A DNA stretch of 64,000 bases from Cytophagales bacterium (GTDB taxonomy: Bacteria; Bacteroidota; Bacteroidia; Cytophagales; Spirosomataceae). Positions 3,492-63,677 of the stretch are shown here, in pieces (position 1 is the first letter of the stretch; each line of letters begins with the position of its first letter). The stretch is taken from contig JAAFJP010000026.1 in the NCBI GenBank assembly GCA_013298125.1, positions 1 through 64,000 of the forward strand. The letters run 5' to 3'. The position numbers and the translations under genes are program-made. Below the pieces are notes generated by a model that did not search any database, was not told the origin of the DNA, and saw nothing but the letters and a program-made list of their open reading frames with translations.

Positions 3492-3646
3492 TGTATATTT
3501 ACATCATAGTTAAGGATTATTTAAGATATTTTTCGTAAAGTTTACCGCCATTCATTTTATAATGTATTGATAATCAAAACATTAAATTCTTGCTTTGTCC
3601 TTCTCTAAGTATTTGTTGATTCCTTGCCATAAAACTAAATGATTGC

Positions 3647-4840
3647 ATGAAATTCGCCAAAACATTCTTCTTTCTTACTTTATCTTATTTTGTCATTTCA
3701 AACGTACATGCTCAGGTTGGGGAAAAATATTATGGGAGAGCCTCTTATTACGCAGACAAATTTCATGGTAGAACCACATCCAGTGGAGAAATTTATGACC
3801 GTGCTGAATATACAGCAGCCCATCGAGAACTTCCTTTCAATACCATCGTAGAAGTTATCAATACGACTAATAATAAAACGGCAGTAGTCAAAATTAATGA
3901 CCGAGGTCCATTTGCTTATAATCGAATGATAGATTTGTCCTTTGCCGCTGCCAAAGACTTAGAACTTTTGGGTCCAGGCGAAGCATCCGTAGAGATGAGA
4001 GTTCTGGCAATGGATAAGCCCGAGTACAGTATTCCGAGTTTTTATGCAGGAATAAAAGATGAATTCAAACGTGAATTTACGCAATACGAACCCATCGAAA
4101 TCAGTGGGAAAAGTGTAGTCAAGGTGACATTGGACACTGCCTACCGCCCAACACCAATGCCTGTCAGTGTACAGCCTAAGCCTGTAACAGAATCATTTGT
4201 CATTGCGGATAGTCTTAGAAAAAAACAAGAAGAAGGTGATAAAATGGGCTTTCGTCAGCATAAATATATACGTGTTATTAAAGATGCCGACGGACGCTAT
4301 CGTCTTGATTCTACGATAGTTACGCCTCCAACGCCACAAGAAGTATATTCAGTTGCTCCTCAAAATCCCAAGTTTACTAATTACGAAGCAAGACCTGTCA
4401 TTGCCAAGACTGAACCCCAAAGTCAGACTGTAGCATCGAACGTGAATGATACTCAAAAAACCATGAAATCAGTAGCTGAGGAAGTGCAATCAGAAAATCG
4501 GGTAAGTGGATTTCGTCAATATCAATATGTGAAAGTTTATACAGATAGCGAAGGAAGAATTAGAATGGATACTGCCCAAAAGTCTCCTGTAACTTTGGCT
4601 AAAAATACGAATACTCAGACCATTAAGCCAGAAGAAGTTGCCAAATCTTTGATGGTGACAAATCCTACGACGAACAATGCTACAAATACTGCAAACGTAG
4701 TGACGACTACAAAACCTGTGGAAACTAAGGGAAAGGAAATTTATAAAGATGGTTTCAGACAACACTCATACATAAAGTTGTATAAAGACAAAGACGGTAA
4801 AACCAAAATAGATGATACCAGTTTTGAACGACCCAAGTGA
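3647..4840 (+). CDS. RlpA-like double-psi beta-barrel protein with three C-terminal repeats
   Basis: A secreted or envelope protein of 397 residues. It has a signal peptide ending near VHAQ (residues 1-23). A double-psi beta-barrel RlpA domain spans about residues 27-125, with the hallmarks GRASYYADKFHGRTTSSGE, VVKINDRGPF and MIDLSFAAA. In proteobacteria RlpA is a septal lytic transglycosylase. No SPOR domain is present here. Instead the C-terminal two thirds is Pro/Thr-rich linker carrying three copies of a roughly 23-residue motif beginning GFRQ(H/Y)xY(I/V)(R/K) and containing DG(R/K) or EGR followed by (L/M/I)D. They start at residues 201, 288 and 369. The repeat function is unknown. It converges with the CBS gene with only 7 bp between stops. 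Confidence 0.85.
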   Translation: MKFAKTFFFLTLSYFVISNVHAQVGEKYYGRASYYADKFHGRTTSSGEIYDRAEYTAAHRELPFNTIVEVINTTNNKTAVVKINDRGPFAYNRMIDLSFAAAKDLELLGPGEASVEMRVLAMDKPEYSIPSFYAGIKDEFKREFTQYEPIEISGKSVVKVTLDTAYRPTPMPVSVQPKPVTESFVIADSLRKKQEEGDKMGFRQHKYIRVIKDADGRYRLDSTIVTPPTPQEVYSVAPQNPKFTNYEARPVIAKTEPQSQTVASNVNDTQKTMKSVAEEVQSENRVSGFRQYQYVKVYTDSEGRIRMDTAQKSPVTLAKNTNTQTIKPEEVAKSLMVTNPTTNNATNTANVVTTTKPVETKGKEIYKDGFRQHSYIKLYKDKDGKTKIDDTSFERPK

Positions 4841-61220: not shown

Positions 61221-61228
61221 TAACTTTG
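61221..61228 (+). promoter_or_regulatory. -7 box for ftsE
   Basis: TAACTTTG is a perfect TAnnTTTG match, 36 bp before the ftsE ATG at 61264. The -33 region is T-rich but lacks a clean TTTG. Confidence 0.55.
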
Positions 61229-61263: not shown

Positions 61264-61941
61264 ATGTTTAATTCCGAGCCAGTCGTTTCCATTCAGAATG
61301 CTTTTATTTATCAAAAAGAGCGTGTAGTGCTTTCTGATGTTAATTTTTCTATCAATAAAGGCGAATTTGTTTTCTTGATTGGACGCACTGGAAGCGGCAA
61401 AAGTTCATTGCTCAAAACCCTATACGCTGACCTTTGGCTACAACGTGGTAAAGCCAAAGTGGTTGGCTATGAGATAGAAACATTACTGCCCACCGATAGA
61501 CCATTCCTTCGTCGTAAAATTGGCGTAGTCTTTCAAGATTTTCAATTATTTATGGACAGGAATGTCTATGAAAACCTCCTTTGGGTCTTGGAAGCTACGG
61601 GTTGGACAGACTCAGGCAAGATTAAAGCCCGTGTGGCGGAAGTGCTGATGCAAGTAGGAATGTCCACCGCCAAAGATAAAATGCCCCACCAACTCTCAGG
61701 GGGTGAGCAACAGCGTATCGTAATAGCAAGAGCCTTGTTGAACGAACCCCAAATCCTTTTTGCCGATGAACCCACAGGCAATCTCGACCCCGAAGTATCA
61801 GAACAAATCATCAAACTTTTTCACGAAATCAACAAGGCAGGAACGGCTATTTTGATGGCTACTCACGATTTTGATATGATTCGTAAATTCCCCGCTCGGA
61901 TTTTGAAATGTGAGAATGGGGTGGTTTTGGAGGAGGATTGA
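61264..61941 (+). CDS. ftsE: Cell-division ABC-transporter ATP-binding protein FtsE
   Basis: An ABC ATPase of 225 residues that works with FtsX at the division septum to control peptidoglycan hydrolases. Walker A GRTGSGKS is at 40-47, the Q-loop in VVFQDFQLFM, the signature LSGGEQQR near 139, Walker B ILFADEPTGNLDP, and the H-loop in MATHDFD. I use ATG at 61264. A TTG two codons upstream also exists. The FtsX gene is not adjacent in this window. The last ~96 bp of this gene are repeated, in diverged form, at 62838-62935 beyond the BRO gene. Confidence 0.93.
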   Translation: MFNSEPVVSIQNAFIYQKERVVLSDVNFSINKGEFVFLIGRTGSGKSSLLKTLYADLWLQRGKAKVVGYEIETLLPTDRPFLRRKIGVVFQDFQLFMDRNVYENLLWVLEATGWTDSGKIKARVAEVLMQVGMSTAKDKMPHQLSGGEQQRIVIARALLNEPQILFADEPTGNLDPEVSEQIIKLFHEINKAGTAILMATHDFDMIRKFPARILKCENGVVLEED

Positions 61942-61995
61942 TAACTGACAAATAAACCAAAACAATAACCACAAAACTTTCAAAAATAACCATAG

Positions 61996-62820
61996 ATGAG
62001 CAACATTAAACTTTTTGAAGATAAACAAGTACGCACCGTATGGGATGCCGAAGTAGAAAAATGGTATGTTTCTATTATTGATGTGATAGAAGCCTTGACA
62101 GGAACAGACCGACCAAGAAAATATTGGAGCGATTTAAAAACTAAACTTAAAAAAGAAGGAAGTGAGTTGTCCGAAAAAATCGGACAACTGAAAATGCAAT
62201 CTTCCGATGGAAAGTTTTACAAAACAGACGTGGCTGATACAGAGCAACTTTTTAGGTTGATACAGTCTATTCCATCACCAAAAGCTGAACCTTTTAAACT
62301 ATGGTTGGCACAAATAGCCAGCGAGCGATTAGATGAAATGCAAGACCCAGAACTGAGCATAGACAGGGCTTTGCAACAGTATCTTAACCTTGGGTACAGC
62401 GAAAACTGGATAAATCAACGCCTGAAAAGTATCGAAATCCGAAAGGAATTGACTGATGAATGGAAAAGGCTTGGATTAAAAGAAGGACAACAATTTGCTA
62501 CCTTAACCGATATCATTACTAAAAGCTGGTCAGGTAAAAATACCAAAGAATATAAAACTTTGAAAGGATTGAAGAAGGAGAACCTTCGAGACAATATGAC
62601 TAATACTGAGCTGATACTCAATATGTTGGCGGAAGCATCTACCAAAGAAATTTCCCAGGCAGTAAATCCGACAAGTTTTGAAGAAAGTAAAACGATTGCA
62701 CAACAAGGCGGTACTATTGCTGGCAATGCTCGAAAAGAATTAGAAGCAAAAACGGGTAAAAAAGTAGTAACAGAATTGAATGCGACAATATTTTTAGAAA
62801 ATAAGAAAAAACTTGAATGA
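61996..62820 (+). CDS. BRO-N domain (phage antirepressor-like) protein
   Basis: A 274-residue DNA-binding-type protein. The N-terminal ~110 residues are a BRO-N domain: VRTVWDAEVEKWYVSIIDVIEALTGTDRPRKYWSDLKTKL, then QLKMQSSDGKFYKTDVADTEQLFRLIQSIPSPKAEPFKLWLAQ. The C-terminal part (LTDEWKRLGLKEGQQFATLTDIITKSWSGK ... QGGTIAGNARKELEAKTGKKVV) is typical of the antirepressor-like family found widely as a solitary gene in Bacteroidota and in mobile elements. It lies between two copies of the end of ftsE, so it is probably an inserted gene. No integrase or phage gene is next to it. Confidence 0.85.
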   Translation: MSNIKLFEDKQVRTVWDAEVEKWYVSIIDVIEALTGTDRPRKYWSDLKTKLKKEGSELSEKIGQLKMQSSDGKFYKTDVADTEQLFRLIQSIPSPKAEPFKLWLAQIASERLDEMQDPELSIDRALQQYLNLGYSENWINQRLKSIEIRKELTDEWKRLGLKEGQQFATLTDIITKSWSGKNTKEYKTLKGLKKENLRDNMTNTELILNMLAEASTKEISQAVNPTSFEESKTIAQQGGTIAGNARKELEAKTGKKVVTELNATIFLENKKKLE

Positions 62821-62837
62821 ATTATAAAGCATGAGTA

Positions 62838-62935
62838 GCTATTTTGATGGCGACTCTCGACTTTTTGATATGATTTGTAAATTCCCCGCTCAGATTTTGA
62901 AATGTGAGAATGGGGTGGTGTTGGAGGAGAAATGA
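62838..62935 (+). pseudogene. Diverged duplicate of the ftsE 3' end
   Basis: This 98-bp stretch matches the last 96 bp of ftsE (61846-61941) at about 90% by eye. Shared words include GCTATTTTGATGGC, AAATTCCCCGCTC and AAATGTGAGAATGGGGTGGT. A 2-bp insertion in the TTTTGATATGAT region breaks the ftsE reading frame and leads to an early stop. The two copies form direct repeats on either side of the BRO-N gene. The copy ends 1 bp before the stop of the convergent gene at 62937. Confidence 0.92.
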
Positions 62936-62936
62936 G

Positions 62937-63665
62937 TTATTTTAGAAAATAACGTATGCCTATTCCGCTGTTGTTGATGGAGAATGATGGGCTGAAAGAA
63001 TAATCTGTTACTGTCTCAGATTCATAGGCAGTATAAATTTGGGTATTTCCACCTCTTGTTACACCATACTCTTTCGAGGTATCTGATGTTTTGATTGACA
63101 GTTCAAATAGATTTAAATTGCCAATAGTTGTTGTTAAAGCCCATCTCGAATTAATAAAATAAATAAAGCCTGGATATGCCTTAATGTATCCATTTATATA
63201 TTTTGATTCTCCATAACTATTGAAAATTGAATTTGGAATATTTGCAATTTGTTCCCCCACTCCTTTTTTGTATGCAATTCCGACTTCAAGTCCACCTAAA
63301 ACAGCAAATTTATTCAAAAACACTTTATATTTTTCATAAGCATAAGAAATGTTGAGCCTAAAATCTGAGCCTTTAAATATTTGCTGTTCGTAGATTCTTT
63401 CAGATTTTGCTATACCTATACTAAAAATTCGAGCATCTCTTTTTCTGACAAACTTCCCCAATGATAAATTAGCTGATAAATATGAACTGTTATAATAATT
63501 TTGGATAGAACTCTGATTATTCTGAGTTTGAACAGATGTATTAAAATCGGTTGATATTGAAACGAACTTTCTACTCTTAGTTGTAAGAGTATCTTTTTGT
63601 GAGAACGAATTAATATTAATCAGAGTTAAGAGAAAAGCTAATTTTAATAAAAATTGAATATTCAT
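62937..63665 (-). CDS. Outer-membrane beta-barrel-type protein, function unknown
   Basis: A secreted protein of 242 residues from ATG at 63665. The signal peptide (LLKLAFLLTLININSFSQ) is followed by alternating aromatic beta strands (SSYLSANLSLGKFV, YIKAYPGFIYFINSRWALTTTIGNLNLF, NNSGIGIRYFLK). Such patterns and the terminal aromatic-rich strand fit small barrels of the Bacteroidota outer membrane. I do not recognise a named family. It lies 12 bp after the next gene upstream, also barrel-like, so the two may be tandem paralogues. Confidence 0.75.
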   Translation of the reverse strand: MNIQFLLKLAFLLTLININSFSQKDTLTTKSRKFVSISTDFNTSVQTQNNQSSIQNYYNSSYLSANLSLGKFVRKRDARIFSIGIAKSERIYEQQIFKGSDFRLNISYAYEKYKVFLNKFAVLGGLEVGIAYKKGVGEQIANIPNSIFNSYGESKYINGYIKAYPGFIYFINSRWALTTTIGNLNLFELSIKTSDTSKEYGVTRGGNTQIYTAYESETVTDYSFSPSFSINNSGIGIRYFLK

Positions 63666-63677
63666 AAGATGTACCAA

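Follow-up and report, generated by a model that had tools for sequence, protein, structure and literature searches.

The Bro-N gene located behind ftsE in this Cytophagales genome probably (at a rough probability of 0.6) encodes a mobile DdrC-like DNA-binding protein whose operator lies within the coding sequence of its own recognition domain, an arrangement that would provide portable autoregulation behind any promoter. The evidence comes from the insertion pattern of the gene and its homologs, a nucleotide-level constraint on an internal palindrome, covariation of the palindrome arms, and a correlation between the predicted recognition helix and the palindrome sequence. Here, the window is the whole stretch of DNA analyzed (64,000 nucleotides), and all coordinates without a locus number refer to it.

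The ORF list, a profile match, and relatives identify an intact ftsE gene (ABC transporter ATPase; 61264–61941, + strand), which is followed by a 54-bp gap (61942–61995, + strand) and the Bro-N gene (61996–62820, + strand; 274 aa). The top NCBIfam match of the ftsE product is FtsE (TIGR02673; 242.7 bits, under the cut-off of 264.85), and among seven genomes of the same genus its protein identity is 91–94% in five and 88% in one, with no close ortholog found in the seventh. As the preliminary description had reported, the last 96 bp of ftsE (proximal copy, 61846–61941, + strand) recur beyond the Bro-N gene in a decayed form with a 2-bp insertion and substitutions (distal copy, 62838–62935, + strand). 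Self-alignment gave ungapped blocks of 73 nt at 93% and 39 nt at 79% with a 2-nt offset, which BLAST joined into 98 columns at 90.8% identity (E = 4e-34 within the locus), and the 2-bp insertion sits in the distal copy. This repeat is not attributable to chance, because only one of 211 control ORFs shows a flanking direct repeat of at least 45 bp. The Bro-N gene is the sole plausible gene between the two tails (the mechanical ORF list also contains two antisense ORFs of 76 and 103 aa that lie between the tails or overlap it), in agreement with the earlier claim of a single-gene unit lacking an integrase: the ORF list shows no integrase-like gene between the copies. An integrative element at gene ends was rejected accordingly, since the unit encodes neither an integrase nor a recombinase. 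The last base of the distal copy is 62935, 1 bp from the stop of a convergent ORF (62937–63677, − strand; no match in Pfam or NCBIfam), again as first described. The source genome (5.85 Mb, 95.5% complete) has no homolog at E ≤ 0.001 other than the Bro-N gene itself. TAnnTTTG is the Bacteroidota promoter motif; a motif check found one such box at 61221, upstream of ftsE, and none in the 54-bp gap or the ftsE tail, and the Bro-N gene is therefore likely transcribed by read-through from ftsE.

The ftsE loci without the Bro-N gene have a single tail in all eight relatives compared (six of the same genus and two of the family, all other species rather than strains; flanks ≤1.5 kb), and one of these genomes (G003; G numbers denote genomes) has a fragment of the Bro-N gene family of the window (hereafter, BRO) elsewhere. 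The locus thus combines a long flanking direct duplication with single-copy empty sites (8/8), the two features by which we recognized insertion with long target duplication. Nine columns differ between the two tails. The derived state is in the distal copy in eight of them, with the 2-bp insertion accounting for two, and in the proximal copy in the ninth, implying that the functional tail is the one attached to ftsE and that the distal copy is decaying. If the distal changes represent decay, the ancestor of that copy was nearly identical to the proximal tail, and any tail donor would have been a very close relative; the extra tail may be of incoming origin or a copy of the resident one. The original proposal that an incoming segment brought its own ftsE tail holds with respect to insertion at the gene end, duplication of this end, an intact proximal copy, and decay of the distal one. 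Its companion idea, in which the distal copy retains the ancestral arrangement of genes, was not supported: the convergent ORF was not found beside ftsE in any of the eight relative loci (flanks ≤1.5 kb), so that either copy may occupy the ancestral place.

To place the window in a wider context, homolog and comparison loci (L numbers) were collected. Of the 222 genomes of the family, 26 contain a homolog at E ≤ 1e-30; a scan of named genomes supplied another 80 loci, the best 80 of 580 confirmed stretches. After exclusion of the duplicate records L172 and L175, and with phage and plasmid records left out of the repeat counts, 98 BRO loci had at least 300 bp on each side. Flanking direct repeats of at least 45 bp were present in 17 of these 98 loci compared to one of 211 control ORFs (Fisher p = 1.6e-8; controls of 180–420 aa from the same stretches, being ordinary neighbors rather than accessory genes, with control repeats counted whatever their copy number), and the other 81 BRO loci have no repeat of this length. 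Given this choice of controls, part of the repeat excess may be a property of accessory regions at large. Only one control gene (L120 544–1221) is closely flanked by a direct repeat (155 bp, 86%), and it may be another mobile gene. A strict set, defined by two copies only, a left copy ending ≤250 bp and a right copy starting ≤150 bp from the gene, retained nine of the 98 loci (p = 1.8e-4): the window, L063, L066, L067, L130, L149, L154, L169, and L173. Four of the 17 repeats (L083, L117, L146, and L156) have 3–6 copies within the locus and were rejected as simple duplications. The upstream gene is co-directional in 75 of 91 BRO cases versus 273 of 395, a modest enrichment.

Individual loci show that other solitary Bro-N genes are flanked by duplicated gene ends or starts, an outcome in line with the check suggested in the preliminary description. 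In G170, BRO follows an mscS-type channel gene, and the 78-bp tail of that gene is found again on the far side of BRO; the 117-bp repeat of L130 is likewise the end of the upstream gene. In G163 and G171, BRO precedes an mscS-type gene, its stop codon abutting the channel ATG, and a decayed channel-gene head (308 and 53 bp, respectively) lies upstream of BRO. An identical 48-bp repeat in L154 spans a leader, the start codon, and the next codons, with BRO in frame with this start; the second copy opens only 26 aa. In L156, four copies of one leader of 103–123 bp (748–870, 1720–1840, 3559–3677, and 4135–4236) stand in front of four different genes: BRO, a gene of the RhuM family, a truncated DinD-type Bro-N gene, and a fourth ORF. 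BRO and the next two share the reading frame of the leader's start codon. This row looks like serial insertion behind one leader, each unrelated solitary gene having its own leader copy. In G164 (L090 707–1500), a remnant of the channel-gene head is followed by a broken gene that matches DUF1016_N (6e-7, slightly short of the cut-off) and then by an intact mscS-type gene, and BRO was not found in this genome at E ≤ 1e-30; because the channel-gene start is duplicated here around another gene, the mscS-type place looks like a hotspot for solitary genes. On the Arcobacter cloacae plasmid pACLO (L339 988–3453), a Bro-N gene lies between cas4 and cas1b of a type I-B CRISPR set. Junctions are unlike one another among the loci examined, and the repeats range from 48 to 341 bp. 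An insertion sequence or transposon was rejected, given these long, variable repeats, the differing junctions, and the absence of a transposase ORF between the window repeats.

The main competitor for the insertion pattern, which we rate a little short of even odds, is one-sided homologous recombination, in which near-relative DNA comprising a gene end and BRO recombined within the host gene and the other side was joined illegitimately, with no element-coded mobility. Homology-facilitated illegitimate recombination is a known route, and it suits the intact gene beside BRO with a remnant beyond it in the window, L063, L066, and L067, the channel head remnant around the broken DUF1016 gene of G164, and the repeated leader before four unrelated genes in L156. 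Against it, the strong excess of repeats over ordinary genes calls for a BRO-specific reason, and the two tails in the window are of nearly the same lineage. It is very improbable that the repeats are remnants of tandem gene duplication with BRO incidental to them: the 308-bp mscS remnant in G163 could be a truncated whole copy, but at several loci what is repeated is a 5′ leader or the short end of an unrelated gene, with BRO between the copies each time.

The product of the Bro-N gene matches Pfam Bro-N (PF02498; 43.1 bits versus a cut-off of 25.6), PHROG 15286 (phrog_15286), and the PADLOC phage defence candidate PDC-S13 (442.3 bits over residues 2–271, a model without a printed cut-off), a term not found in the literature searched. 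With respect to a possible role as a phage antirepressor, four of 50,697 phage records match the gene family. The predicted structure (mean pLDDT 90.3) has a DdrC-like fold over most of its length, with 14–18% sequence identity to the DdrC structures of Deinococcus radiodurans (7udi, 8u0g, 7qvb; N-terminal domain 8u1j). Based on the fold comparison and a weak match to the DdrC equivalog NF033622 (24.4 bits at residues 136–220, under the cut-off of 150, and thus not an assignment to that equivalog), about residues 133–256 (62392–62763, + strand) form a helical, DdrC-like C-terminal part. In the N-terminal part, the model places helices at residues 27–35 and 40–54, followed by strands at 63–68 and 74–80, an order that corresponds to the layout of a winged helix-turn-helix. 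The predicted helix-turn-helix covers codons 27–54 (62074–62157, + strand), and residues 45 and 46 (62128–62133, + strand), which track the palindrome type among homologs, are modeled near the start of the second, recognition-type helix (residues 40–54).

Comparison of homologs revealed a near-perfect palindrome, TGAGTTGTCCGA-AAAAA-TCGGACAACTGA (62163–62191; core 62165–62189), at codons 57–65 of the Bro-N gene, which we regard as the putative cognate site. The motif GTCCGA-N1-7-TCGGAC occurs once in the 5.85-Mb source genome, inside the Bro-N gene, and a dispersed repeat or genome-wide regulon was rejected because this palindrome type is present only in the gene itself. Similarly, GTTACANNNTGTAAC occurs once each in G170 and G163, within the BRO gene, and in none of five other genomes searched. 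For the family-wide analysis, 106 of 109 BRO loci were parsed (the other three being fragments), and removal of two duplicate records left 104 genes. The palindrome centre falls at the same codon in all 104, and a real palindrome is recognizable in 103, being absent from L083. Half-site positions 2 to 7 are Watson-Crick paired in 100, 102, 103, 103, 98, and 100 of the 104 genes, with 2, 3, 4, 4, 3, and 3 kinds of pair, respectively. Across 103 distinct modules, 600 of 618 cells are Watson-Crick pairs, where 2000 shuffles gave 289 on average and at most 368. Under a synonymous-codon null, with codons drawn from each gene's own usage, the mean palindrome score was 10.6 versus 4.5 (p ≤ 0.05 in 102/104 and p ≤ 0.01 in 79/104), and the palindrome is strictly the best of its gene in 95 of 104. 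Two palindrome codons are identical in 99% of same-residue pairs; elsewhere in the stretch examined the figure is about 20–80%, apart from a lysine codon immediately after the palindrome (96%). The palindrome is thus constrained at the nucleotide level beyond what the peptide requires. No strong palindrome was found in the other Bro-N genes L201, L202, and L207 (another subfamily) or in L205.

The palindrome sequence follows the predicted recognition helix. In all 102 distinct palindrome-bearing modules, the bases at positions 3 and 4 of the half-site are set by residue 46: valine goes with A3T4 (45/45), lysine with A3G4 (22/22), aspartate with G3C4 (28/28), and alanine with C3C4 (7/7). The remaining module, L083, has asparagine at residue 46 and no real palindrome. 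Residue 45 is more loosely linked to position 5 (R-T 26/26, K-T 19/22, N-C 12/13, S-C 27/37), and the residue pair 45–46 shares 2.87 bits of mutual information with the half-site (at most 1.14 in shuffles), a correlation that is not independent of descent, since the helix residues lie about 30 nt from the palindrome and are inherited together with it. In a later test set (12 of the 17 matches listed from plasmid and phage records, one of them seen earlier, leaving 11 new loci, with L341 and L342 on two plasmids of one strain), nine loci have the palindrome and all nine obey the rule; two Chlorohelix plasmid copies have no palindrome, and one of them has K46, where the rule expects a site. There are 138 pairs with at least 85% C-terminal identity (ungapped) yet different residues 45–46, including L066/L067 and L072/L075, which share 99% of the C-terminal sequence and have different modules, each palindrome fitting its own helix. 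Conversely, 85 of 117 same-class pairs with C-terminal identity of at most 55% share all six half-site bases. A KV-like palindrome lies upstream of an mscS-type gene in three genomes (L035 412–449, L038 about 927–943, and L090 1442–1458), one of them without BRO, and these may be due to chance. Exclusion between copies was considered and set aside as uninformative: half-sites differ in five of the five two-copy genomes or metagenome-assembled genomes listed, a proportion close to chance expectation (about 4.5 of 5), and G026 has two copies that are by eye both of the KV type.

DinD-like Bro-N genes have an equivalent palindrome of another type, CATTTT-NNN-GA..TC-NNN-AAAATG, which reached p ≤ 0.05 in 79 and p ≤ 0.01 in 56 of 102 distinct genes from chromosomes and viral contigs; the other 23 miss p ≤ 0.05. 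Helix and mirror codons were parsed in 96 genes (70 distinct), and 170 of 210 mirror-codon bases match, compared to a shuffle maximum of 111. The type again tracks the putative helix motif, with the helix placed by alignment: EWRN occurs with GTT..AAC in 13 of 14 cases and RWEN with CGT..ACG in five of five. Flanking repeats, at a limit of at least 40 bp, were present in four of 31 DinD-like loci. The dinD palindrome of Escherichia coli K-12, TGACCATTTCGAGGA-GA-TCCTCGATATGGTCA, has 14 of 15 arm positions paired. A dinD match was found in 4,668 of 5,426 E. coli genomes (4,253 over at least 80% of the gene), with identity at the best place of ≥95% in 1,932, 80–90% in 2,732, and <80% in four. Three alleles of the 80–90% band differ from K-12 over the first 300 nt (41–64 of 75 per comparison interval) and then agree at 92–100%; the second common allele thus has an exchanged N-terminal module. 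Comparison of L328, L329, and L333 with L216 shows at least two very different N-terminal dinD modules with nearly the same C-terminal part, and in L332 (1291–1568; E. coli isolate 3702594) the start of the second-module allele is joined to the last 68 bp of the gene. The second allele has a weak palindrome (10/15 positions), which counts against a universal rule.

Other roles for the palindrome were weighed against that of an operator. An unlikely one is that it serves mobility or exchange of specificity modules, as a site of recombination or end recognition, rather than regulation. The gene moves, as its flanking repeats indicate, N-terminal modules are swapped (the E. coli dinD alleles and L066/L067), and a similar palindrome precedes the mscS-type target in three genomes; the junctions, however, lie at variable distances outside the gene and none at the palindrome, which is intact in inserted copies. 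Somewhat less credible still is an RNA hairpin acting in the mRNA on translation, stability, or sensing. Covarying arms around a centre of 3–5 nt, located on the coding strand, would suit a stem-loop equally well. Nevertheless, positions 2–7 contain only six G-U pairs and 12 other mismatches in 624 cells, so that G-U is nearly absent, with all six at one position in the SV class, and the arm sequence tracks two predicted recognition-helix residues, for which a plain hairpin has no need. A mutational by-product, in which template switching keeps perfecting the arms of an imperfect inverted repeat (quasi-palindromes are known to undergo such correction), can be largely discounted, because it leaves unexplained both the link to residue 46 and the 85 of 117 same-class pairs with distant C-terminal parts that share all six bases.

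Under the operator reading, the unit would be a single-gene mobile element without integrase or transposase that inserts at the start or end of a host gene and generates a long target duplication of variable size. The N-terminal Bro-N winged helix may read the palindrome as a dimer, and because the cognate palindrome directly follows the recognition-helix codons, specificity and site would travel and be exchanged as one module. Landing behind a host promoter (here, presumably by ftsE read-through) would lead to expression, and the protein could then bind the palindrome, located about 170 nt from the start of its gene, and stop further transcription, making autoregulation independent of the landing site. 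More broadly, we consider it about as probable as the reverse that these genes form a widespread mobile Bro-N/DinD/DdrC-like class with a protein-DNA code that can be read from sequence. Each specificity module would hold its target site within its own coding sequence, so that inheritance, exchange, and diversification act on protein specificity and site together as a self-referring unit, which amounts to a single-gene immunity-group system. To our knowledge, the role of DinD and Bro-N proteins is unclear; if the operator reading is true, it offers a function-level handle on them that is directly testable in E. coli K-12, and it accounts for the ability of a solitary gene to move to any promoter yet remain under its own control. 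The linked helix and site would also make binding specificities readable from sequence in many genomes. With respect to mobility, insertion with long target duplication would apply to single genes as well as to restriction-modification genes, and the many natural cases would help in finding the duplication mechanism.

Gene mobility by target duplication and autoregulation by an internal operator are already known in kind, and there is a fair chance that a self-encoded, co-evolving site is something new in itself; a search of titles and abstract openings, with most subscription literature outside its reach, found no report of a palindrome or binding site inside Bro-N, DdrC, or dinD genes. Excerpts from two papers (PMC1643837, PMC3031569) describe, citing Nobusato et al. 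2000, the insertion of restriction-modification genes with long, variable target duplication. In those excerpts, the likeness to our loci is the long, variable direct target duplication around a gene unit. The unit in the window differs in consisting of one Bro-N/DdrC-like gene with no restriction or methylation gene, the BRO family is found in records of several phyla, and in the window, L063, L066, and L067 the host gene remains intact through its proximal copy. The protein resembles DdrC of D. radiodurans in fold and differs from it in sequence (14–18% identity; 24.4 versus 150 bits for NF033622). With E. coli DinD it shares a Bro-N-type N-terminal domain, a similar length, and, in K-12, an internal palindrome at the corresponding place, whereas DinD belongs to another subfamily with another half-site, is located between yicC and yicG in the records examined, and has one common allele with only a weak palindrome. 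The lac operator in lacZ is a repressor site inside a coding sequence, and the proposed Bro-N site is similar in lying within a transcribed gene; unlike the lac operator, it overlaps the codons of the regulator's own recognition domain and changes with them.
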